Below are positions 4,076 to 59,430 of a stretch of 64,000 bases of DNA, piece after piece (position 1 is the stretch's first letter; every line of letters begins with the position of its first letter). Origin of the DNA: Chrysoperla carnea (Eukaryota; Arthropoda; Insecta; Neuroptera; Chrysopidae); the NCBI RefSeq assembly GCF_905475395.1, contig NC_058340.1, positions 70,038,181 to 70,102,180 on the forward strand. Direction: 5' to 3'. Both the position numbers and the translations under genes were made by a program. Below the pieces are notes generated by a model. The model searched no databases and had not been told where the DNA came from. It saw nothing but the letters and a program-made list of their open reading frames with translations.

Positions 4076-4713
4076 TGGAAAAATCGGTGAGTTGAATTGT
4101 TAACTATGCATAATTTAGCGTCTGTCATGTCAAGTCCATCATGAAACACTAAGTGCCTCTTCTTCCAATACACATCCGGTAGGTACTATAGACGTAAATG
4201 TTAATAGTGTGAATTAGCTTGAAATAATTTATAATGATATTATTGAATAAAACGAAAGCAGAAAATTCTATTTTTATATATTTAAATAAATATATTATAA
4301 ATAATAATCATAAAAAAGTAAAATGCTAAAAGAATTAATTTGATACGAATCATTAGAGCAAACACAAAGTTTAATTAGTGGAAATAATTAATAAACATTT
4401 ATTTATGTTTAGTATACAGAGTGTCAAAAGTTCATCACTGGCACAAAATAATAGAAACAAATGAAAACAAACAATTGACTGAGTAAATTGTTGAAATATC
4501 ATGCATGTATAGACAGTGTTGATTACACTATCACATTCTACATTCATACAAGTCACACATAAATAACTGATATTCCCACATATAATACATACTATACAAT
4601 TTGCGACCAACTTGCTTGCCTTCGGGGTAAACGGTACGTTTACGAAAAAATGTTTCAAACAATAGTTGTTATAAATTTCGATTTTTGCCCCAATTCCTAG
4701 ATCAGTTTTTTGT

Positions 4714-4764
4714 ATTTTTAAAATACGTATTTTCGACTACCAAGTAGTCATCATCAGTAAGAAT
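4714..4764 (-). ncRNA. Hammerhead ribozyme-like motif (minus-strand arm)
   Basis: Mirror copy of the motif at 4816-4866, in the left arm of the perfect inverted repeat and therefore identical when read on the minus strand. See that entry for base pairing. Activity is not shown. Confidence 0.4.
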
Positions 4765-4815
4765 TAGCTAGTGCAGTCCGCCACCAAATTAGCAAAGAGT
4801 AACATTCACTAGCTA

Positions 4816-4866
4816 ATTCTTACTGATGATGACTACTTGGTAGTCGAAAATACGTATTTTAAAAAT
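4816..4866 (+). ncRNA. Hammerhead ribozyme-like motif (Penelope-type candidate)
   Basis: Seen: CTGATGA (4823-4829), one extra T, a 6-bp hairpin GACTAC/GTAGTC with a 3-base loop (4831-4845), then GAAA (4846-4849) and a palindromic ATACGTAT (4850-4857). Bases 4816-4822 pair with 4860-4866 in six of seven positions, giving helix I. These are the helix I, CUGANGA, helix II, GAAA, helix III parts of a hammerhead in order, with T4858-T4859 where U16.1-H17 would be. Known: Penelope-like elements carry hammerheads with very short helix III that can act as dimers, and a palindromic helix III fits that. Odd: one unpaired T between CUGANGA and helix II. Inference only. Confidence 0.42.
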
Positions 4867-5759
4867 ACAAAAAACTGATCTAGGAATTGGGGCAAAAATC
4901 GAAATTTATTTCGACATATCCTAGAGTTCTCATTTATTATCTTCGATAATATTTATAATAGTTGTTACTTTATTTATAAGGAACATTTTTTACATTTAAT
5001 TTTTTGTTCTATCTCTAACGGTTTACAAGATGGGTCCTACGAACCCAAGACCCAATTGACCTATGTTGCTTGTTCTCACTTTTTAATTCCTGAGTTTTTA
5101 TGTTATCGTGTACACAGACAATTTTGCTAATTATAATAATTTCAATTTTACTAATATTAATCGAAAAATTTGTAAAATTTGATCTTGAATTCTTAATTAT
5201 AAAAATGAGCTTCATCTCGGGGCGTAGGATTGAAAAAAGGGCAGAGAACTTTTAGTTTTATCCATCAATTAATTATCTGTTTTTCATAACTTTTTGGACA
5301 CTCTATATAAAAAATATGTCTATTAAGTCTGAATTCATCTTAACATGTTTATGCCTTTTATGGTTCGAAATATAAAAAAAATTGTTAAAAATGATTGTGC
5401 TATCTTAACTATCTCAGCGGTTTAGATCTGTTGAGATCCTATCTTCTTGGATAACAGAGAGCCGTAAGGTACCTATAAATATCTTAAAATTTGGGATTTC
5501 ACGAAAATTCATTGAATCTTTATAAAAACTGTGCGACTGCATTTTTTAAAGCTTACAAAAATTTGTGCGATCTTGCCCAGGGAGTGGGAGCCACTTCTTC
5601 TTGGGAGTGGAGAAATTTATGCTAGAAATGACAACGGGACTCGATATAGGGATGAATTCGAAAAGCCAATACTTTATAATGAAAACAAAGTTTATCGGAA
5701 ATTTAAAAATATGTTTAAATAGTTGGCGTAAAATTTTTTCGCTTCGTGGAGCCGTTCTT

Positions 5760-7482: not shown

Positions 7483-10400
7483 ATGTCGTGGGAATCTGTT
7501 GCTTCTAAAGAATTTTTACGGTAAGATATAAAATAAATTTTAATTAACCACTTATTTATCGGTATACACCCATTAGAAAATATGAGTTAGAAAATATATG
7601 TTTATTTACATGGTAGCGAATTAGAAATTAAGTTTTAGAAAACGTAAATTAAAAAGAAATTTTTTAATAAGAAGTAAAATTGTAAAATTATTTTGAGGAA
7701 TAATTTACTAATAGGGAATATTCATGAAACTTAAATTTGGTTCAAATATTTTTCTTCCGTAACTTTAATGACTGGACATTTCGACTAAACCAATTTTTTT
7801 AGTAATTAATATCTTTTTAATTACTTAAAATTAATTAATAAAAGTACAAAATCAGTGAGGACATTAAAAAATTTCTAAAACGGAAATTCAAATTTTTATA
7901 CGGACGTGACATCATAGTACGGGCTTGTCAAATTTGTTGACATACTGTATGATATTAATTACTTATATTTTATATCGTATTTCATTAAATTATATTATTC
8001 TACGGCTTTTAATTAGAAAACTTAATAATAACGAGTGTAAATTCTATGTTGTAAATTCATTTTTTTAAAGTGTAAATTATACGTTGAATTGTCACCAATT
8101 GACAGATCACGTACTTATACGTCATCAACAGAGATCGCCAAAAAACTGTGTTTAAATATCTCAAAATTATAATGTATTTTAAATATTTTTTTACACTTAA
8201 ATACAGCACTGTCTAAATTATGATTTTAAAATATTAGCCAATAGGTCAGTCGCTCTATATTGGGATCAATTTTTTTGAGGCTATACACTTTGCGACCATG
8301 GGAGATGGGTTCTTAATGTTATCAAAAATAAAAATTCAAAAAATTTGCACAAAAATTTGCTCCGGCACAATTTTTATGGCTGGTTTTTTGAAACATTTTG
8401 AAAAAAATGGCGACTTTTTTGGCTTTCTTGGGAAAACTCTTGACTATCCTCCCAAAACTAGTGAAAACTACTATCTACTACTACGAAAGTTTATATGAAA
8501 CTCTGTAATTTTGGGTAAAAAAAGGGATGATAGTTTGTATGAAAATTCGTCATTTTGGAATTAATTACACTTAACTGGTTTTAAAAATTATTTCACCTAT
8601 AATGATTTTTGTACTTTTTGGGTCAAAATTACTTTATATACGGAGTTTTATCAAAATTGGAGATTGAAGAAATTTCTCGATTTTTTGCACTTTTTTTAAG
8701 TAGGCCCTTTGAAAAAATCGAGAAAATCGCAAAAAAAATTTTTGTTTGAGAATTTGATGAAACTCGGTGGAAGGGGTAATTTTGACCCAAAAGTACAAAA
8801 ATCCGGTTAATTTAACGATTGGATGCAGAGTATCAGAGATATCGCAATATTTGGATCGATTTTAGCCCGTATCTCAAAAACTATTCGACCAGTCATCAAA
8901 TGCACCCGATTTTTGTACTTTTTGGGTCAAAATTACCTTATATACTAAGTTTTATCCAAACTGGAGATTAAAAAAATTTCTCGATTTTTTTGCAATTTTT
9001 TTAAGTGGTAAAATTTAAAGATGAGGTAAGAACTAAGCATTAATATTTGGCATCGAAACAAAGATAAGTTATACAGAGGTATAAATTCGATTAAGGTAGA
9101 AGAAATCCATATCTGCAGTATGAAGACAAATGTATAGGTATTTGTCCGTTTTTTCATAGAAGGATTTACTACGTGTCATTTACCTAAGCCCTTGATTAAT
9201 TTGTTATCAATAAGATACAGCAGTACTCTATACTTTTTCTTTTCAATTCAATTTTTGTTTGCCAAATTTTTCTGAAACCATTTTCTTATTTATGATACTA
9301 TATAATTTTTTTTATACTCACTATTTTTTCGTATTTTATACAGTGTGTTTCGTGATGGTATGGGCAAATTTAAGCAGGTTATTCTTGAAGTCGAAAAATT
9401 CCTTGTACCTACATTTTTTAAATAGCCTGAAAAAGTAGTCGTTATTACTATTTTACCTAACTTAAATTTATTGGTTAATAATAAATAAAACAAGCGGCAG
9501 AGTGGGCCATGGTGCGACCCTTGAGGTCCACATGAATTACTCTCCAGCATAATCAAGAGTTACAAAAAAATAAAAACTCAACCAACTCGAAACGACTCGA
9601 CCAAATGTTATGAAATTATTATTATATTGCCGTTAATATGCTTCGATCGACACTTCAACGAAGTCAATATCATTTTTCGTTCGCGTGCTATCGATTAGGA
9701 AAAAAATGACCACGAACGTACACACACACATACTTCTTATCCAAATTGGTGTTCCTACGTTTTAGGTAAAGATATGTTGAAAATTTCGATTTCGAAAATA
9801 TGACCCCTTAACAGAACTTACTATACTGGGAAGTTAATCGGGAACATTTATTCGTCTCCAGTTTTGAGAAAAATCATTTTCTAGAATAATTTCTATCAAG
9901 TTTCGAAAGAAAATATTTAAATTTTTTCATTTCCACTCAGACTTTTTTAAATACTTTAAGTAAACCGTGAAAATTACGATAATGCATTTTGTAATTGAGT
10001 TCTTGTTGAGACATAGTTATTGAAATAAATACCACGATACTCGAAATAAAATTGTATATTAAGAAACTTAATTTAAAGAAGTGAAAAGAAACAATTGACT
10101 GAGTTAATTGTTGAAATACCATGCATAGTCAGTGTTGATTTCTTTATCACATAAAACATACAAAAATGTATAGACAGTGTTGATGCGCAATCGTTTGTTT
10201 TTTTGACGTCACGTAAATAACAAAAGATATTCACTTTTAAATAGACACACACACAACTGATATTCCTATATTAATACATTCTATAAAATTTGCACCTAAT
10301 TAACGCCCTCGTGGGTAAACAGTAATGTTTACAAAAAAAATGTTTCAAACAAAAGTTGTTTAATTTTTGATAAGGAATATTTTTTATATTTAAACTTCTG

Positions 10401-13400
10401 TTCTACCTCTAACGGTTTACAAGATGGGTCCTACGGACCCAAGACCCAATTGACCTATGATGCTCATTTACGAACTTGACCTCACTTTTTACGTCCTGAG
10501 TACGCTGTAAAAATTTCAGCTCGATATCTTTTTTCGTTTTTGAGTTATCGTGCCACAGACGGACAACCGGAAATGGACTAATTAGGTGATTTTATGAATA
10601 GCTATGACAAAATTTTTTTCCTAGCATCATTATTTTTAAGCGTTACAAACTTGGTACTAAACTTAATATACTATGTATATTTCATATATACATGGTATAA
10701 AAATATAATTGAAAATCATACAACAGATTTACAATTCGCTAAATATTTTGATAGCAACATAATCATCGTCAGTAGCTAAATTTATTCATATAACACATTA
10801 CAAACATTCTTTACAAAGTTAAAAATAAATATGTAAAACTTACCAACTATTACAATAACACTTACAAAAATAAAAATACATAATTATCATACTTTTCAAT
10901 TTTGAGATATCTAATTTTTATTTTCGACTTTGTAAAGAATGTTTGTAATGTGTTATAGAATAAATTTAGCTACTGATGATGGTTGCGTTGCAAACGAAAT
11001 ATCGATATTTAAAGAAATGTAAATCTGTTGTATGTTTTTTAATTATATTAAAAAAAAAAAATTCCTTAATATAAAATTTTATTGCGAATATCGTGGTATT
11101 TATTTCAATATTTTGAAACCCCTCACGTGATACACCCGGTTTATATTTTCCCAACAGCAAAATAAAACCAAATAACCATAAAATACACCTACACTACATC
11201 TAACATAAAAAAAGTAGCATATTTGAAAATTTATCTAATAAAATTTTTTTAATTTATAATATTTATGAGAATTTAAAATATGTTCGACATGCTGTTCGAG
11301 GAGCGATACGCCGAACATAAAGTTTTAACAAAAGTCATATTAAACATGTTATGATTTATAACAACAGAAAAAAAAAGTGTCTTTATTGCTGAAAAGGCAA
11401 TGTACTATTTATAACTGTAAAAGAAATTCTAACTCGAATTTTTAATGAAAATCGATTCAACTTCATTCATATGCTTCAAAAAAAAAAAAAAATTACATAA
11501 ATAATAAAACATGTCTGTGTACACGTATACAAGGTGTTCCAGTTAAAATTGTAGTGCATTTTTTTTATGGAATATTTTTTGAAAAAATTTGGGCTGATAA
11601 AGAGCATAATATGCAGTTTTTATACTCGTAAAATAAATTAACTTTAATTTTTTTGTATCGCGTTACCGCTTTCTAATTTAAAGCATACATCTAATGTTTG
11701 CCAGTTATGAATCAGAGTGAAGTTTTAATTGAACCTGAAAACTTAAATCGAATTCGATGCCGGTATAAGATGCGTGTCTTTGAAACTAACATTTTTCGTA
11801 ACAGAAGCATTTTCCTGGATTAAATTTGTTAATGGAATTTCTGTATAATAAAAAAAATTATTGATTATAGAAATGGAGTATCGCATCAATTATCCGCATC
11901 ACGATTGCTGCCATCACCCGACTGCTCAAAACCATCATTAGTAGATGATCGTGCATCGATATCGTGTTCCCGTTACATTGAAGCATTAGATTCACCAAAT
12001 GGCTCCGAACTTAGATATGATCATTATATTGGTACAAGTAATTCGTTGTTAGGTGCTTGTGCCATTAGCATGAATCATGGATATGTGGAACGAAACAACT
12101 GGGGCTGTTTTTCATCATGTCGAAGTCGATTTCAACAAGTGTTAGCTAAACGAAAAGTAATTTTTTACTTAAAATATGTCTAGTTTTTCAGCGAAGTTTT
12201 TCATATTAATCCTCATTTAGGTTCATTACCTGGATGACCGAACTTTGCTCGTTATTATTTTTTTAAATGAAATCTAGCTAGATTGATTTTCGCCCCCGAA
12301 ATCCCATGCATTATAAATTTCATGAAAATCGTTGGTTTCCGAGAGACAACGACGTTATCTTAAAATGAAACCTAGCTCGATCAATTTTTTGTCCCAAAAA
12401 CTCCCTGCATACTAATCGTGTAACAACACCATCTATTGAAACCTATCTTTAATGTTTCAGTGTCGGTAATGCAGTTAGTTGCTCCCAATTAAAATAATAA
12501 TAATAGTATTATTACTCGCCAATAGATGGCAGTAAGAGTCACATTATTCAGTTTGTTTCAGTTTTTCCTGAAAACACGGATAAAACGACATATCCTAAAA
12601 ATAAAACCAAGTTAGATGGATTTTTCGCCTCAAAAAACCTCTGCATATTAATTTTTATTGAAATCGTTGCAGCCGTTTCCGAGATTGCTGATAAATTTCA
12701 ATAAATTTCAGTGGACATAGTTTTTTTGGAACATTATGAAATCCAGGGAATGAAAAGAAAATTTAACTTTATTGTAATTAGGAAGACAGACAATAAACTG
12801 GGATTAATATGATTAACCAGAATTGAAAAGTTAGCAATGTTTTGTGAAAAAAGTTAGTTAAACTCGTTTTTTTCTTAGATAAATCAAGGACTAAAATTAT
12901 ACAACAAACACAAACAACATGCAGCCGTAAGAAAATGGAAATCAGCGTTAAAGACAATCAAAACTCGGGAAGATAAATTTGCCTTGCTTGGTTACCTATA
13001 TCAAGGCTATATGGATTGGGGAAAGTATAGGTAAATTTTTATCACTTAACATTAATTTTACCAAACACTTTAAAAAAATTTTTGATTTTAGAGAAGCATT
13101 AGAATTTGGACATGCTCAATTAGGCATATCTGAAGAATTAGACTCACCGAATATGCGTGCTGAATCGTATTTAAATTTGGCTAAAGCACATGAAAAATTA
13201 GGAGCTTTTGAAAGGTATGATTAAAAAATGTTAATAAAATGTCTGCTATCACACAGTATCACCGAACTTATTAACATTAAGCGGCCTTCTTTAAACGCTT
13301 GATAAGTTTTTGATACTCGCTAATCATTTTGTTGATACTCGTTTATCATATTTCCCCTAACGGCGGTGAATTCGGTTCTGCGTACAACAATTACGAGAGC

Positions 13401-34400: not shown

Positions 34401-36016
34401 TACCCTATCGAAATATAACGGAGGCGGTTGCTTTGGCGAATAATACCAAATATGGTTTGGCTGCATCAATTTGGAGTGAAACTGAATCGATAATTAAGGA
34501 AATTTATCATCAATTACAGGTTAAAATTTCAATTTTTTCTCGGATTCTCGGCGGCTGTTTAACTTCTATTTCTAATTTTAGGCCAGTTTAATATGGGTTA
34601 ACAGCTATGGAACTATAAACCCACAAGCAAGTTTATGTCCTTACAAAGAAAGTGGTCTTGGATATTTTGGTGGTGTAGAAGGTAGAAAAAAAACCGTTTT
34701 TAAGTGTTTTTGTAGTTCGAAGTAAATATTTTTATCATTTTTATTAAATTGTAGGACTCTTAAATTATATGCACTTAGACGGCAATACACTTAAACCGTA
34801 TAACGTGTATGAAAGTCCCGGACATGTGGATAACGCCAAAAATGAGGCAGTTTGTGCAAAAGTAGCCGTATCTAAAAAATCTTTTCTAGTTTGGTCAAAA
34901 TATTCAGCTTTGGAACGATGTAAGCTTTTACAAAAACTTGCTGATGAAATTGAAAAGAATGGAAAATTACCACAGTAAGTATTAATCAAGATTCGTAAAC
35001 ATGGGACAGTGTTGATGAATACACACGGAGAATTTAGCCTCATTGCCCTAAAATTTAACTGGAACTTGATTATTCGCAAAAAGGGGACATGTTGACTGTA
35101 CACTGCTCACAGAGCTAAATAAAATTAATTGGTGGAAGTCTAAAGCCAGGAGCAGTAATTGGCAGTAATTTAAGGATAGTTGAAAAGAGATATTTTTTCC
35201 TCGAGGTCGGACACAATGAAATAGAAGTCTCAGGCCATACAAACCGTAGAGGAAACGGCTATGAAATATGACCTTAACTATAATAATAATACATAAGATG
35301 GGTACCGAAAATGGGTCCCTGATACGTACACTAAGAGGTTCTTTATGCCCTGGTGATCGTACATTCTTAATATATGATTTTATTTCGTGTATCGTGGTAT
35401 TTATTTTAATAACTATATCTCAACTCGAAGTCAACAAAAGTTCAGCCATCTCTCTAATTCCGATTTTTAATTTTCTTTCAGAGAAGTAAAAAATTGGTGG
35501 ATTCATATTCTTTACGAATATTCAACAAAAGGTTTACTAGACGAGACAATTACTTTCATAAATAAGACATCTTTGACCACAATTAAAGAATCACTTGGTG
35601 TAATTGTGATCGATGCCAATCGTGATATGGATTTAATTGCACAATTAGTTATATTTGCAATAGCAAATGGTAACGCTGTTATATTAATCGTAAAAACGGT
35701 TGATTATTTAACCGAGATAACAAAACTATTTAGCGCGTGCGGCTTTCCTTCAAATCTGTTAACAATTATTACAACTGAGAATTATCTGAAACCGTTAATT
35801 GAACATGAAGATGTTCAATCGTATTGGTATGAAACTAGTACAGATGATAAACAACGATTTAATCGAGCCCGTCATGTCGATTGGCGAACAACATATAATT
35901 TAAAAAATTCATTTATTTACGAGACCGATCATAAGTTTGATGATATTGCGTTAAATATGATTTCATCGAAGAAAAAAACTATTTTAAGTAATGTTGGTAA
36001 TTCGATTCATTTGTAG
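31481..36016 (+). CDS. ALDH16A1: Aldehyde dehydrogenase family 16 member A1-like protein (non-catalytic)
   Basis: Ten exons: 31481-31579, 31648-31850, 32508-32686, 32755-32911, 33172-33341, 33814-33911, 34103-34519, 34582-34681, 34755-34974, 35482-36016; GT/AG with matching phases, 725 residues (human 802). Two ALDH-fold halves follow ALDH16A1: the first runs to KESGLGYFGGVEGLLNYM; the second begins near YNVYESPGHVDNAKNEAVC and ends after EDVQSYWYETST. In the first half the usual active-site stretch with G-Q-x-C is absent: EGAWSHYGL (to residue 302) passes straight to LPWNLHNVYVQESIYENF, the same gap as in vertebrate ALDH16A1, and the general-base Glu of ELGGK is Ser (SLGGF). It is therefore expected to be a scaffold or binding protein, not a dehydrogenase. 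AATAAA at 36058. Repeats occupy introns 2, 5 and 9. Confidence 0.9.
31905..32412. repeat. Repeat R-B with internal duplication, intron 2 of ALDH16A1-like gene
   Basis: GGTGCGGAATTCCGC and ACACCATCTACGGACCAATC plus TATCCTTCTAGTAATTGC (32020-32080) recur at 32140-32220 as a ~140-bp duplicate. The second half (CTTTCATTCACTGATCCACG to CATTGGTTCGTGGATG) matches 60715-60935. GC content is higher than the surroundings. Non-coding, unclassified. Confidence 0.75.
33375..33665 (-). mobile_element. LINE-B fragment in intron 5 of ALDH16A1-like gene
   Basis: AACAGATGAAGCTATAAGAT, GAAGGTGGTAGTTCAATCGA and AATCAAGATGGGCTTG are shared with 63000-63265, where the reverse strand encodes RNase H. Here no frame survives. 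Inserted 34 bases after the donor of exon 5. Confidence 0.65.
35355..35425. repeat. Short repeat shared with the 10 kb and 11 kb elements
   Basis: ATCGTGGTATTTATTTTAAT with flanks matches 11092-11112 and, reversed, 10015-10050. It lies in intron 9 of the ALDH16A1-like gene and is a fragment of the R-E/foldback family. Confidence 0.55.
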
Positions 36017-40600: not shown

Positions 40601-43600
40601 AAGAGACAAGGTCGCCTTTAACAATTTTTGTTTCTACGGAATTTTTCATTTTTAAAAACACCCTCGCCGATTTCAGAAAAAATGCCATTTTTTTAGTGTG
40701 TTTTATGAATTTTTCAAATATAATTTTTAAATTTTAGAACTGCAACAGCATGGCCTCAAAAACTTATAATGCAATTAATGCCAAAACAATTGATTGGTAA
40801 TATTGGTGGCACCTATTTAAAAAATTCCAAATCTGTCCTATTCCATCCGGATAATTGTGAAGCCTTGGATTCACTAACAAAAGTTATGAGTTCTGGATTT
40901 GTAAGTTGAACATTGAATTGAATTTCCCTTCTAGACTGAAATGTGCAAATTATCTTTGAATTTTTCTATAGGCAGGTTGTGTACATTTTACAAGTTCTGG
41001 TCCAACAGCATGCGATATTAAAGTGCTGATATTGTTGTATACGGCAGAAAAACGTGCTTATTTAGGATTTATACCAAACGATCAAGGTGCATTTGTGGAT
41101 CGATTGCGAAAAGTTATTCAACAACAGAAATCTAATCAAATGTTACGACAAGGACAGGTAATGATTTCCAATCACAATCGTAAAATATCTATCGTGCTTT
41201 TCTATCTAATGTCCACCGAGTATTATCAGTTTTAAATTCATCATCTGAGCCGAACAAAGTTCGAATTTTGTGTCATTTTCTCAAAGAAAGAAGTTTCACA
41301 TTTGTTAAATCGTATACGTGATTATAACGGATGGGCCATTTAACGTTTGGAATTTGGAGTATAGGTACTGTAGGGCCAGCCATGTTGTGTTCCATGTTTA
41401 ATTTCAAAGTATACTCTTTTCAATAAAGTAACAAGCATTTAAAGATATCCGAGCGTTTTCATTTTATAGCAAAATTGAATTTCCGTTTTTAAATAGCTCA
41501 TCCTGTATCTTACAATTAGATTGTACTCATTCTAAAAGGCATACACAGTGACCAATTAACAAGTAGGCGGAATAGACAACTGCCTAGAGGTTTCGGGAAA
41601 GGTTAAAAAAGGGCATATTTGATGAAAACTAAAAAGGGGAGATAAATTTTTATGAGAACTATAAAAAAACTCGTTGTCATACCTACATATCGGATGGCTT
41701 TATTGTTCATAGACCAATTCTGTTAATAATTAAAATAGAAATTTCGCTAGGTGTATGTATACACGGTATAAATATTTGTTTGTAAAGGTTGGTACCAGTG
41801 GAAATCCAATGAATCCAAACGGTCCAAATCCAGCAATGAATCAACAACAAGGCACAAATCCAGGTTTAAGTGGTCCAGCCGGTAGTCCATCCACTGGTGG
41901 CGTAGTGCCAAATCAACCAAACATGATGGTACAACAAAATGTGAATTTAAATCAGGGTAATGCACCTGGTGCCCAACCCCAACAAGGACAACAATCGAAC
42001 ATGATGAATGTTGTACAAGGCAATAATAATGCTGGGCCCCGTATTAGTATGCCCGGTATGCCACCCGGTACGAATTCTCAAATACAAACAAATGCCGGTG
42101 CGGGAGCAGCTGGTATACGACCTGGGCAACCGCCCGGTCAACCTGGACAACCTGGTGGTAGTGGCATACCGCAATTAGGTGGTCCGCAACAGCAGCAGCA
42201 ACAACAAACTGCGGCGCAGCAAGCGGCGCAGCGTGCTCAATTCGATCATTTGGCTAGACAACAAAATTTGGAGAAAATAATGCAGTTGAAGCAAACTTTG
42301 GAGCAAGCTCAACAGCAAGAGGCACAATATAAGAGTCAATTGGAGATAATGAATCATATGAAAACGCAACAATTGCAAGAGGCTTTACAAGTTGCACAAC
42401 AGCAAGAAAACCAATATAAACAACAGATGGAGGTAAGTAATAGTAGTAGCCACCTGATTAATAAGGCTTCCAGGCTTTGATTATCATATCCGGGTCGTTT
42501 TCTATAGTTTTGTGGTCATTATCAAACCTACCTGTGTTCTGTACAAATTACAGGACAGAAATTCACTTTAGGTTAGGTTAGAGTGGCTGGGCCACTACTC
42601 CATGAACCATTTGGAGCTGTTTAAGAACAGCAGGAGTCGTCAAAGAGAGGCTGGCTCAAGTAAGTCCATCTCCTCATGACAAGAGCTGGGCAGTAACAGA
42701 GAAGATGAGACATTGTGTCTTCCTCGTCATCACTGTGACAGCTCCTGCAGTAGTCGTGATACACTGCCAGGCCTAAGCGTTCAGCATGCTTGCCGCCCAG
42801 TCAGTGTCCTGTGATAGCCGCAACAACTTTGCGAACAGAGGCCCTTGGAAGTGATATGAGAACTTCGGAACGTCTGCGATTGTACTCAGACCATATCTGT
42901 CTTGTAGTACCACAATTATTATTCTCTTTATTTAACATTTTTAAAAAATTTGTCATTTTTTATTTAGGACGATCCTAAGCATTCAGAGCATCGATTTCTG
43001 GGTCAAATACCTTATTTCACTAACAATAAGAAGATCATAAAGCTACCTTTAATTTTAATTTCTCCATCTAAGATTGGCCTTTTCAGAATATCCTCTTTCA
43101 GGAGTAACTTGCAGTTCGCAAATGGAACTCCCGGGTATTTATTGATGCTTGTGTCCGGCAGCATCGTGCTATTTCTGGCAAGCTCGTCGGCTTCACAATT
43201 TCCTGGAATGTCCATGTGTCCCGGTACCGATATCAGGTCTACATTCATTCGTTCCGCCAGGTCATATAAGAACGTACGGCAGTCCCGTGCTACCTTTGAC
43301 AAATTCACTTTAAACGTTTTACTTTTCTATTTTTTTTTTAAATAAATATTTGAATAGGCCTTGCCAAGAGAAGGTATATTTTCCTTCCACGGCCAATATT
43401 CATCGACTTCAAAAAACCAATAACAATTGGATCAAGTACGCTAATACATTTATGGTAAATTTAATTTTTATATGGCCTTTTTTTGTCCTATAAAAAAATG
43501 ACATCGTATCCAATGTTTTAGTTTTAAAACCCTAAAATAATCTTTTTCAAACTTATTAAGGAAGTACAAAGTTCTAGTCAATTATAGAACATCCCCTGTA

Positions 43601-49076: not shown

Positions 49077-50947
49077 ATTTTTTCTAATTTATTTTTTATT
49101 TTACAATTTTATTGCTCAGAAATCAATTGATTCAGATGAAGTTGTCCTTCGTATATCTGTCACATGAGAATTCATAGAGTATTCAATATCGGAATAAATA
49201 CAGATAACGCACCCAATCGCTAATCATAGAGTGAGTATATGTATTGAGTGTCACGTATGGATTTACCATAGACCTTTTCAGCGATTTGTTTTTGTTTCGA
49301 ACAGTTGTCAAAAAACTATCAACCTAAAGAAAATCTAATATATTTTGGGATCTGACATATGGGCGAAGCTAAAACAACATGGCTGACATAAAGTGACAAA
49401 TTTTAAAAATAACATAGCAATACACACCCTTTGTGCAATTTTTCAAGAAGAGAATGATTAATATCAATGAAATTTGTTGTTGGGGACAAACAAAACCGAG
49501 TAATCGTAATTTTACTGAAGGTGAAAGACTTTAGAAAGTAGGTCTTGTGATTAAATATGGAAAAAATCAAGTCGAAAGTGAAGAGGATGTGCTCAGTTTA
49601 ACGTCATACTGTTTACAAACAACTAATTTAAAAGAAAAACCTCATCAAATCGATATAAATAAATAAATACCTCTTCCAGTATTCTTGATGTCAAAACACA
49701 GTAATCTTTTTAGATTTAAACATAATTAGTTGATAAGACATAATAATTTTTTTTTTTTTTAATGAAGTTAGCACACTTTTTGACTTGGTAAGATATTTTT
49801 TAATCGCAGTGTTTTCTGCCATAATTTTAAGACATCAATTTTCTCAAAATTACCAAAATAATTTTCAATTTTCGTGTAATATTTGCCTACATGAGGCAAA
49901 TTATGAAAACTCAGATCTGTATTCGTATTGGAACGACTTTAGCAATTTTTCACACAACACTTTACTCTTCTCGTGCTTTTAAATTGAGATAAATACTTTC
50001 CAAACGCCATAATTTAATTTTTTTATCAATTATTTATTATTGTTGTAATTATAACTTGCAAAAAGTAATCAACTCCAAACTTATCAATGCTCAACACTAA
50101 AAGCTGTAACTTGAAATTAGTTTCTACTTTAACAACCAGGTGCCATGCCTTCTTTTTTCAGATCCCAGTAACTTAATTGAACAGCGCCTTTTGACTCAAA
50201 AGGCGCTGTTCAATTAAGTTACTGGGATCTGACAAAAGGAGGCATGACACCTGGTTGTCAAAGTAGAAACTAATTTCAAGTGAAGATAGAAAACACGTGA
50301 TATGTCTTTATTTGATTGACAGCTGTCCGAAACAAAAATCCCGAAAATGTTAAAGTTGATTCAGGCATATTAGTTAGGTGAGTTCACCCCAAATTGATGG
50401 CCCACAAACGATCCACAAATCAGCAACTGCTTTGTGTTTGATTTCAACATTTTTGTGAAGTAAATGCTAATCACCTCTGTTAGCAATAATATAATCTTGT
50501 AGGAACCATTTTTCTTGACAAAAAGCACACTCTAATATTTTCAGAGCAGAGTACATTCTGTACCTCTTAGATCATATGTTTTCAAATATTTTTTTAATCT
50601 ATCATTGGTGACATTCTTTTCAAGTTAAAATATTGACATTCCATTGAATGACTAGTCTTGATTTTGGTTAGGTATAATCTTACAATTATAAATATTTATT
50701 TGAATGTATTTAATAACAAATAAAAGTTTATTTAATTATATGCCAACGTTGTATAAAAGTATATTAAAACTTGGTGTGTAAAGTGTTATAATTTTTATAC
50801 CAACATATTTGTTGAAATTAATTCCATTAATTAATATGTTAAGAAAGTTTTATTCATTCCAAATATTATAAAAATTAATTTAATACAGGTATTGAAACAG
50901 TTGGAAAGAATTTCTATTGTACAAAAATATCTACGAACAGTATTAAA
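49077..50947. other. Divergent intergenic region between V-ATPase e and IDE
   Basis: AT-rich. Contains the 171-bp palindrome at 50110-50280. A 5' UTR exon of IDE may start at 50890 after a TTTAATACAG acceptor-like sequence. No other gene recognised; a frame at 49785-49982 has no resemblance. Confidence 0.5.
50110..50280. mobile_element. Near-perfect 171-bp palindrome (foldback MITE)
   Basis: CTTGAAATTAGTTTCTACTT at the left is matched by AAGTAGAAACTAATTTCAAG at the right, with only a handful of mismatches, one 2-base shift around 50152/50235, and a 5-base centre (GACTC at 50193-50197). It reaches end to end with no unique core. The outer T/A symmetry ends at 50109/50281. Confidence 0.88.
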
Positions 50948-53900
50948 ATGGCTGGCAGCAAAGTATTAAAACGGATGGATGTTATCAAATCACCAGAAGA
51001 TTTACGAGAGTATCGTGGTTTAGAACTTGTAAATAAACTTAAAGTTTTAATTGTTAGTGATCCAACGACTGATAAATCAGCGGCTGCTTTAGATGTTAAT
51101 ATTGGTTAGTATATAAATTCCATTTTCGATTTTTAGAGATATCTCACAATCTGAAATTTTTATAGATAACTCAATTTTTGGCTAGGATGCTTAGTATTTC
51201 TGTTTAACAAAGCTATGATAGAGGAAATAGTAAATGTTGTAGAATAGAATCCAGTTGTAGTGTTATCATAATACGTCTTCAATTTTTTTCGGGGAATAAG
51301 TAACCATTTTCTAATTCATAGCTATCATGATTAACTATATTGTATTTGCGAACAGAGGCCCTTGGAAGTGATATGAGAACTTCGGAACGCCTGCGATTGT
51401 ACTCAGACCATATCTGTCTTGTAGTACCACAAGTACGTTCTTCCCTCCATCTAAGATTGGCCTTTTTCAGAATATCCTCTTTCAGGAGTAACTTGCAGTT
51501 CGCAAATGGAACTCCCGGGTGTTTATTGATGCTTGAGTCCGGCAGCATCATGCCATTTCTGGCAAGCTTGTCGGCTCCACAATTTCCTGGAATGTCCCTG
51601 TGTCCCGAATATTTATGTTACTATTAAAACATTTATTTGGTAACATAAAATGTATTTATGGCTCTGTAGGAAATTTTTGCTTCATCTCAATAAAACGAAG
51701 GAATCATTTTAATAATACAATCTAAGTTGTTTTATTGTGTTTACACTACAGAGTAAAGTTCAAAAGTCATTTACTGACGCATATTGTATTAGTCTCCATT
51801 TTTATTACGTCATATTCTACGTCACAGCCCTCTTTTAAACATTTTCAAAGAAAAATTCGTCCACTGCTAGTCAGGGCTATACAAATTGGAGGGTATAGTG
51901 ATGGATTTACGTCTAGGGCGGTATGATTTTAGAGGTTTTGTTATGAATGAATGTAAAATTTTCAGTAAGATATATATTCAATACGTATTGATAACTGGGA
52001 GTTGCAACTCGCCAACTGGCGATAATAATTCGTACTAATGAAAACCAGAAGTCCCGAATTCAATAGTTACAATTTCGAACACCAGATGGCAATATTTGTA
52101 CTTCCCATTTTTTAAAGTCAATAAAATTACCCAAATACAAATTAGATAAATCTCGCCAATTGGCGATAAAATTTGTACTATTAAACTGGAAGTGGATCGC
52201 TTTTTCAGTAGTTCCAATTTAGACCACCTGATTACTTACCATTTATCAATAATGCCTGTCCCAAAAAGTATAAGATAGAGGAGAAGTATTTGGTATCTTT
52301 GTTTCTTAAATTTTTATTTCTTTATTTAGGTTTTATGAGTGATCCTGATAAATTACCTGGTCTTGCACATTTTTGTGAACATATGTTATTCTTGGGTACG
52401 GAAAAATACCCAATTGAAAATGAATATACAAAATTTTTAAGTCAACACGGTGGTTCCAGTAATGCTTGCACATATGCTGATCATACCAAATATTTCTTTG
52501 ATGTTGTACCAGAAAAATTGGAACCTGCATTAGATCGGTATACATTTATCAAGTTTAAGGGATTTTACGATTCTTATGGTGGCAAAATCATGAACTTATG
52601 GTGAATTTTTGTAGAACTTGACGAAAAACACGAAAAATAAAGAGTTTCGCCGAGTTTTCTTAGATTTGCCAAATTTTTGTCGCTGTAAAAATCGTAGATT
52701 ATATCCCGTTTATTTGTATATCTTATCTAAATTTATTTTGTATATTGGAAATTTTTTGTTCCAGATTTGCTCAATTTTTTATAGCACCTTTATTTACTGA
52801 AGATGTAACCGATAGAGAATTAAATGCAGTTAATTCTGAGCATGAGAAAAATATTCCAAACGATACATGGCGCTTAGATCAATTAGATAAGCATACAGGC
52901 GATCCAAAACATCCGTATAGTAAATTTGGAACTGGTAAGTAAATAATTTGCCAACAGATACTTCGTTTTATGCATTTTGCATGGGATGGAGTGGGAGGGA
53001 CAATGAGACCCTTCTTCCACTTGCATAACAACCTTAAGAAAATTATTCTATGTTTTTTGGACATTTTACCATTATTTTAAATATTTCTAATTTGTTTTTT
53101 GGCAGGTAATAAAGATACTTTGGATACCATACCCAAAGAACAAGGTATTAATGTTCGTGATGAACTTTTGAAATTCCATGATAAATGGTACTCATCAAAT
53201 ATTATGGCTTTGTGTGTGCTTGGAAAAGGTGATTAACTTTTTAATATATAAAAAAAAAAAACAAAATAGAAGTGGCTAAAACGTAAGTATGATTCAAATA
53301 AATCACTGATGCTGATGTAGTGATTAGAAATCGTTCAATATGGGAAATTATCGAAATTTGGTGGGAAGATGGTAATTTATTTGCCTTTTAATCTTTCTGT
53401 ATTCTTTAGCAGTACTGATATTAATTTTTTACAGTACATTTTTAAGGAACAAATCTGTTCAAAATTTAAAATAAACCCTAAATACAAATTTTCAAAATTT
53501 TTTTACATTTATAATTTGTAGAGCCTTTGGATGAAATTGAAGATATGGTTGTACGATTATTTTCTGATATTAAAAATAAAGATGTGACTTCTCCAAGATG
53601 GGATGATCATCCATTTACTGATGATTATCTAAAATTATTTGCAAAAATAGTGCCTATCAAAGATGTTCGTAATTTAAATATTACATTTCCAATACCGGAT
53701 TTACATGAATACTATAAATCTGGGGTAAGAATCCCTTTTTTTTTGTAGTATATAAATTAGTTGTCCAATCATCTTAGGAATCTAACGGAATAAGCTGAAC
53801 ACTGATACAAATACACTCCTTGCTCCGTAGGACCTTTAAAAGCATACAAAACCTACTCAGCGCCTACACTATGAACAAATAAGCAATATGGCGGTGACTA

Positions 53901-59089: not shown

Positions 59090-59430
59090 AGCAATTTTTT
59101 TTATAAGAAACATTTTTTATATTTAAATTTTTGTTCTATCTCTAACGGTTTACAAGATGGGTCCTACGGACCTAAGACCCAATTGACCTATATTGCTCAT
59201 TTACGAACTCAATCTTACTCGATGATGCTGTCAATAGGAAATATTCATGAAACTTAAATCTGTGTTGTAAATTCATTTTTTTAAAGTGTACATTATACAT
59301 TGAACTGTCACCAATTGACAGATCACGTACTTATACGTCATCAACAGAGAGCGCCAAAAAACTGCATTTAAATATTTCAATATTATAATGTATTTTAAAT
59401 ATTTTTTTACACTTAAATACTGCATTTTTA
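59090..59430. repeat. R-E block followed by R-C block
   Basis: 59100-59225 matches 4975-5095 and 10375-10480 (CTAACGGTTTACAAGATGGG, CCCAATTGACCTAT). 59240-59430 matches 7715-7740 and 8040-8212. The two repeat families are joined here. Confidence 0.75.

Follow-up and report, generated by a model that had tools for sequence, protein, structure and literature searches.

Non-coding foldbacks in the lacewing Chrysoperla carnea, best read as head-to-head leader copies of Penelope-like elements with a predicted hammerhead ribozyme

The foldback at positions 10702-11049 of a 64,000-nucleotide stretch of Chrysoperla carnea DNA (the window), with a tail reaching to about 11110, is very probably a decayed non-coding insertion of a Penelope-like element (PLE), and a second foldback at 4672-4956 a young insertion of a sister family, both made by copying a leader head-to-head. 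The earlier note on this DNA had taken pairing kept in spite of changed sequence as what selection on RNA structure predicts. The foldback is real, but two decayed PLE pseudo-LTR leaders in head-to-head order describe it best, not a free-standing ribozyme unit, and insertion in the Penelope-like manner explains it better than such selection. The kind of insertion is already known; what this genome adds is many copies that record how the element inserts. We call the foldback at 4672-4956 copy 1 and that at 10702-11049 copy 2.

Copy 1 is best read from its sequence as the younger foldback of a family that is a sister to that of copy 2. Its arms, 103 nt long and 100% complementary, lie around 33 nt (4671-4909), and the whole insert of 285 bp consists of the two arms and a 47-nt tail (4910-4956, plus strand) on the right arm only, a one-sidedness that is not expected from a DNA transposon. 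The left leader (4672-4773, minus strand), a 100% inverted repeat without the tail, matches exactly the pseudo-LTR of an intact element at locus L058; its hammerhead core is at 4757-4751 and the predicted cut falls after base 4721. The right leader (4772-4956, plus strand) runs from the presumed transcription start CAGTCCGCC through a hammerhead at 4823-4859 (constrained fold, 6/6 helix II pairs, predicted cut after T4859) to the tail, and its 185 nt are present letter for letter in the intact element (L058:2783), where the tail ends 7 nt before the start codon of the ORF. The 11-mer AATAGTTGTTA occurs twice on the plus strand of the window and not at all on the other strand, and both occurrences stand exactly at the ends of the insert as the left (4661-4671) and right (4957-4967) copies of a target-site duplication. 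Copy 1 sits within a dispersed repeat, of which a related stretch without the insert lies at 10255-10393. This repeat was seen at 4565-5095 (split by copy 1), 10255-10648, 59113-59209 and 61976-61777, and is the landing site of copy 1 and, by its letters, of L049; we presume that it resembles a repeat common in many insects.

The arms of copy 2 (10702-10832 and 10914-11049) were found by an inverted-repeat search of the window and are 75% identical over the whole. The left leader (minus strand), delimited by the inverted repeat and by alignment, shows no tail and has a degenerate hammerhead with its core at 10772-10766, whereas the right leader (plus strand), which has related arms at loci L005 and L027, carries a predicted ribozyme at 10973-11009, recognised by reading of the sequence and by pattern match. 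It consists of the core CTGATGA (10973-10979), an extra T (10980), helix II (10981-10986/10990-10995), GAAA (10996-10999) and a palindromic helix III (10999-11008), with the predicted cut after T11009; CTGATGATGGTTGCGTTGCAAACGAAA spans 10973-10999, and its last base is the first base of the palindrome ATATCGATAT. The core, the extra T, the 3-base loop and GAAA are kept in copy 2 just as the earlier note had described, and so is its picture of a degenerate opposite arm, which reads CTGACGA and AAAA and has a 5-column gap in helix III in the alignment.

The outer part, or tail, of the right arm was placed at 11059-11110 (plus strand) by BLAST and reading, and is assigned to copy 2 because its relatives show it so: the same sequence lies 3' of the arm in L005 too and, apparently, on both arms in L027. 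Within the window it accompanies the right arm only, and stray pieces of it occur at 10069-10018 (minus) and 35366-35411 (plus). No clear target duplication is recognisable at the ends of copy 2; CTTAATATA was considered as one and rejected, since the right-hand CTTAATATA is part of the tail sequence. No ORF or coding partner has so far been found for this family. Leaders, hammerhead and right-hand tail are nevertheless all present, and by this design and its hammerhead, without a shared coding region, copy 2 would belong to a Penelope family, an assignment less certain than that of copy 1.

Copy 1 has every part of a type I hammerhead, namely the CUGANGA core, helix II (GACTAC/GTAGTC, all six pairs formed), GAAA, helix III with A15.1-U16.1, and helix I; copy 2 has five of six helix II pairs, a palindromic helix III and only 2 bp of proximal helix I. 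Helix III is 10 nt long and fully palindromic in both (AATACGTATT in copy 1, ATATCGATAT in copy 2), which suggests that the ribozyme may take a dimeric form. Both families have an extra U between A9 and helix II, a departure from the usual core; three bases are missing at this position from L014 and L015, which go back to one insertion that was duplicated. The AUG in the core was rejected as the start of the ORF, as in copy 1 a stop follows after five codons and in L058 the ORF begins 141 nt downstream of the core. Differences between copies 1 and 2 fall on codon positions 1, 2 and 3 in 14/23, 10/23 and 9/22 cases, which is no coding pattern. Viral contigs, scanned at the DNA level for the surrounding repeat and for the hammerhead, gave no match.

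The earlier note had seen a hammerhead core whose helices are retained in diverged copies through compensatory change. Between the two families paired helices are indeed kept: all three changed pairs of helix III remain paired and the helix is a palindrome in both, so that the claim stands there. Helix II (GGTTGC/GCAAAC in copy 2) bears it out in part, with two changed pairs compensated relative to copy 1 and pair 2 broken as G-A. The covariation test that the note had proposed, made over 14 distinct copies, did not lift helix II clearly above shuffles. Pairing was 84.5% against 82.0% with shuffled partners (74 of 500 shuffles reached the observed value), and the observed covariation score was reached in 71/500 shuffles, the tally of pairs with a change in both partners in 334/500 and that of doubly changed cells in 25/500; sliding the partner column by 1-3 lowered helix II pairing to 8-62%. 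The rows were restricted to sites with at least 4/6 pairs, which raises the share of paired cells; 9 of 23 rows were dropped as repeats over the 27 nt aligned, and L004 and L009 were left out because L026 and L027 contain them. Several copies have single uncompensated changes, which by the note's own reasoning speaks against selection on the structure, but transposon copies decay after insertion. Helix II is a feature of the source element, and the copies show no selection on pairing after insertion.

How far the motif exceeds chance depends on the descriptor. A strict hammerhead descriptor matched both arms of copy 1, with a mean of 0.05 matches in 60 simulated windows, and missed copy 2 because of its helix II mismatch. 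A looser scan covered 285,693 bases, made up of the window and of fetched DNA, a good part of it selected for the motif, and gave 23 sites against none in the reversed control; most of the sites come from a single family and so are not independent, and ten 10-kb stretches at fixed places on contig C1 had no site. The simple pattern, found 4 times in the window with 1.43 expected, is not clearly above chance there (8 of 100 shuffles reach 4), and throughout the 559-Mb assembly, whose contig C4 holds the window, and with the reversed pattern as control, it occurs 15,247 times versus 7,200. The Rfam hammerhead models, which may miss such small variants, had no match in the window at the gathering score and none at E <= 10 in the two foldback stretches. 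Calculated without tertiary contacts or dimers, the unconstrained minimum-energy fold of each strand is more stable than its constrained hammerhead fold, by about 14 kcal/mol in copy 1 and 12 kcal/mol in copy 2.

These last two results, together with the extra U and the covariation over 14 copies, would fit a core that arose by chance or is a relic without function in the element. We hold this to be unlikely: two diverged families share the core and helix II, with compensated changes at two pairs of helix II and three of helix III, the 23 sites of the looser scan face none in the control, even if most belong to one family, and hammerheads at the same place are reported in the relevant sections of two studies of Penelope-like elements (PMC11167929, PMC7761336).

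The coding element behind the leaders of copy 1 was found at L058, a locus chosen for its motif places, two on the minus and then two on the plus strand, each two being 2.8 kb apart; one half was fetched. It holds two pseudo-LTR stretches 2818 bp apart around one open frame, 100% identical to the tailed arm of copy 1 along 149 nt of the left one, inside which the fetched DNA starts, and 186 nt of the right one. With its start at the first ATG downstream of the tail, 141 nt after the hammerhead core, the frame is 791 codons long. Its translation matches the Pfam family RVT_1 (E 4.2e-16) and then, weakly, at the C-terminal end after the reverse transcriptase (RT), GIY-YIG (E 3.9e-4), for which the 21.1 bits are just below the Pfam cut-off of 22.6. 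The protein has 1,569 relatives at E <= 0.001 among 7,989 scored, some of the listed ones being annotated with PF01541, and by architecture these relatives would belong in the Penelope clade. At L019, decayed endonuclease pieces 93-94% identical to L058 are followed about 320 nt later by a hammerhead leader on the same strand. Parts of two studies describe the same succession of RT, GIY-YIG and hammerhead-bearing pseudo-LTR in Penelope-like elements (PMC11167929, PMC3846280), to which we assign the copy 1 family.

A Chrysoperla carnea protein in the public annotation named NADH-quinone oxidoreductase subunit F-like (P0014) has an RT domain and is 100% identical to part of the element protein, covering 29% of the query; it is likely a fused gene model. 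A search of the whole genome for the GIY-YIG family returned a host gene only and missed L058. The relative of copy 2 at L027 (C5:43697000-43706900) adjoins this sole match, which was considered as the endonuclease of the element and rejected on account of a later zinc-finger-like exon; by the look of its GIY-YIG and zinc-finger-like exons, we take the gene to be the host SLX1.

A 22-base leader motif downstream of the ribozyme occurs, with at most 2 mismatches, at 841+754 places genome-wide, and its reversed control at 0+2. For the first 100 places in the list, which all lie on contig C1, neighbours no more than 1 kb apart stand minus-then-plus, that is head-to-head, in 24 of 24 cases and in direct tandem order in none. 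Two sets of loci were read. The first comprised 17 stretches for 23 listed places of the simple pattern in the first 3.2 Mb of C1, picked by eye for hammerhead-like stems, and 16 of them match the arm of copy 1 (L025 does not); the second comprised 20 stretches taken in list order from 3.57 Mb by the exact motif downstream of the ribozyme, a choice that selects young copies. Of the ten pairs read, six belong to the second set, and the window and the first set supplied the other four.

In nine of these ten pairs the two ends share an exact flank of 9-15 bp, the exception being L050, which has no target duplication and one arm without a clear end; in a control that set flanks of different pairs against each other, the shared stretch was at most 7 bp in 84 of 90 comparisons, 8 bp in five and 12 bp in one. 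Every pair that could be delimited (9/9) has exactly one 47-nt tail, and in the 20 loci chosen by the downstream motif only, the tail is found on 11 of 26 arms. Were tails distributed independently over the arms, a single tail in each of the nine pairs would be expected with a probability of about 0.0016, or 0.028 for the five pairs from the motif-chosen set alone. Against this one-tail picture stands L027, the relative of copy 2, which seems tailed on both arms. The leader starts with the 5' box (T)GCAGTCCGCC (CAGTC) in 12 of 26 arms, the others being shorter or altered; the DNA upstream of the box differs in several copies, and TATAAA lies about 34 nt upstream of it in L019 and L058, which both read on upstream. 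We infer that the 5' box is the transcription start. In 14 of the 20 loci only one arm bears the motif, and at least four of these (L040, L041, L042, L045) have an inverted partner that lacks the exact motif.

Two direct arrangements were also met. At L018, two hammerhead-like cores stand 105 bp apart in direct order (5177 and 5282, plus strand), unlike the head-to-head rule; helix II of the second is poorly paired, and the pair lies outside the leader-motif set. The direct pair L014/L015, 4.5 kb apart, was discarded as a duplicated gene carrying the element, UDP-glycosyltransferase-like by our reading.

The perfect 103-nt arms and flanking target duplication of copy 1 would also suit a foldback DNA transposon (MITE) whose long terminal inverted repeats contain a hammerhead by chance. 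We give this almost no credence, as the duplications vary (9-15 bp shared), the tail is confined to one arm, a single motif-bearing arm is common (14/20 loci), and the arms equal the pseudo-LTR of an element with a reverse transcriptase, so that the intact L058 contradicts it.

Whether the ribozyme had cut the RNA before it was copied can be judged from where the arms begin. Of 26 arms chosen without regard to the core, 24 contain it and run on through the predicted cleavage site, so that the copied leader RNA was mostly uncut; the remaining two start 3-6 nt before the predicted cut. Arms without a core that start within about 6 nt of the predicted cut were seen at L052 and L053 (minus arms), L018, L020 and L032, in most cases 3-6 nt before the cut rather than precisely at it, and the minus arm of L021 starts inside helix II. 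Such 5' ends were considered as a trace of cleavage in vivo, a claim that we dropped because stalling of the reverse transcriptase at the hairpin explains them equally well.

The same arms bear on the metazoan retrozymes, short non-autonomous repeats with a hammerhead, which multiply through circles of RNA cut out of tandem transcripts. A type I hammerhead, a weak palindromic helix III and a length of a few hundred bases recall the retrozymes as presented in parts of the literature (PMC7229834), and the non-LTR ones share the short repeat and weak helix III with the lacewing copies. Those described are tandem, however, while the lacewing copies are inverted, with none of the 24 close neighbours among the first 100 listed places in direct order; a coding element has the identical leader, and no such partner is described for retrozymes in the cited sections; and 24/26 arms hold sequence from both sides of the predicted cut. 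We therefore regard a retrozyme origin as very improbable.

Under the Penelope-like reading, RNA of the element would start at the promoter in the pseudo-LTR and carry a leader with the small type I hammerhead, followed, just upstream of the ORF, by two reverse-transcription start sites 47 nt apart. Copying begun at these internal sites would yield the leader only. Both cut target strands would serve as primers, and the two cDNAs would run towards each other and be joined head-to-head, leaving a foldback between copies of the target-site duplication with a tail on one arm. In the copy 1 family we observed the intact element with matching pseudo-LTRs, the head-to-head order, the target duplications, one tail per pair and a recurrent 5' boundary; priming on both strands, the transcription start, activity of the ribozyme and an origin of copy 2 like that of copy 1 are what we infer.

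Several features of this model have a counterpart in PAc, a Poseidon/Penelope element of Anolis carolinensis, with its hammerhead near the ORF start, pseudo-LTRs arising from tandems, and an RT followed by a GIY-YIG endonuclease. In the sections of the PAc study drawn on here (PMC11167929), in vitro cutting and extension take place on both target strands, the RT has two neighbouring internal start sites whose spacing equals the 'tail', and hammerhead cleavage is not needed for insertion in vitro; the mostly uncut copied RNA of the lacewing fits this dispensability. The hammerhead of PAc, by the same sections, overlaps the ORF start and reverse transcription starts 111-118 bp inside the ORF, whereas in the lacewing the ORF follows 141 nt after the core, both inferred start sites are upstream of it, and the AUG in the core opens just a five-codon frame in copy 1. 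The start codon of PAc is placed after G8, at the start of stem II (PMC11167929), and its core may read in the same way as the lacewing core with the extra U. The PAc study noticed no start-site difference between the strands, so the lacewing one-tail rule goes beyond it.

Inverted head-to-head pseudo-LTRs with an optional tail on one of them also characterise Penelope families of the rotifer Adineta vaga, for which the relevant sections give target duplications of 8-10 bp and a 31-bp optional tail, and mention solo pseudo-LTRs (PMC3846280). The inverted pseudo-LTRs described there mostly flank an ORF or captured DNA, while in the lacewing the leader pair alone is a common insertion, with shared flanks of 9-15 bp and a tail of 47 nt. 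Amphibian hammerheads are described, in the part of the study used here, in a dimeric form, with a weak helix III and palindromic tetraloop (PMC7229834).

Other repeats and coding remnants were noted in the window. They include a tandem array of C2H2 zinc fingers with an 84-bp period (1071-2551), a 173-bp palindrome of 95% identity without a CTGANGA core (50109-50281), and two minus-strand ORFs (43015-43326 and 51282-51617) whose translations resemble pieces of the RNase H of non-LTR retrotransposons; of 20 window ORFs scanned, one matched the Pfam family RNase_H.

Small hammerhead variants associated with Penelope elements reportedly cut as dimers. With these variants (Lunse et al. 2017; Cervera and de la Pena 2014), as they are summarised elsewhere, the lacewing motif shares the type I core and a very short or missing helix III; its extra U between A9 and helix II may set it apart from them. 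The lacewing family and the count of one tail per pair were not found described among titles on Chrysoperla and Penelope or on Neuroptera and hammerhead ribozymes, a literature in which subscription journals are mostly outside the coverage.

What the hammerhead does in Penelope-like elements is, according to one account, not known (PMC7761336). We tentatively propose, as a possibility that we rate somewhat below even, that the two target strands regularly prime at different sites of the leader RNA, one at the proximal site and the other 47 nt further on, and that in the copied RNA the hammerhead stays silent, acting, if at all, after or beside insertion. If this is true, the enzyme would have left in the thousand-odd leader copies a record, on the scale of the genome, of the RNA ends that it used. 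The many short insertions with mapped 5' and 3' ends indicate that the sampled RNAs mostly pass the ribozyme site and that start sites differ between arms. This would extend an observation made in vitro on the lizard element to insertions in an insect, and both points could be tested genome-wide.
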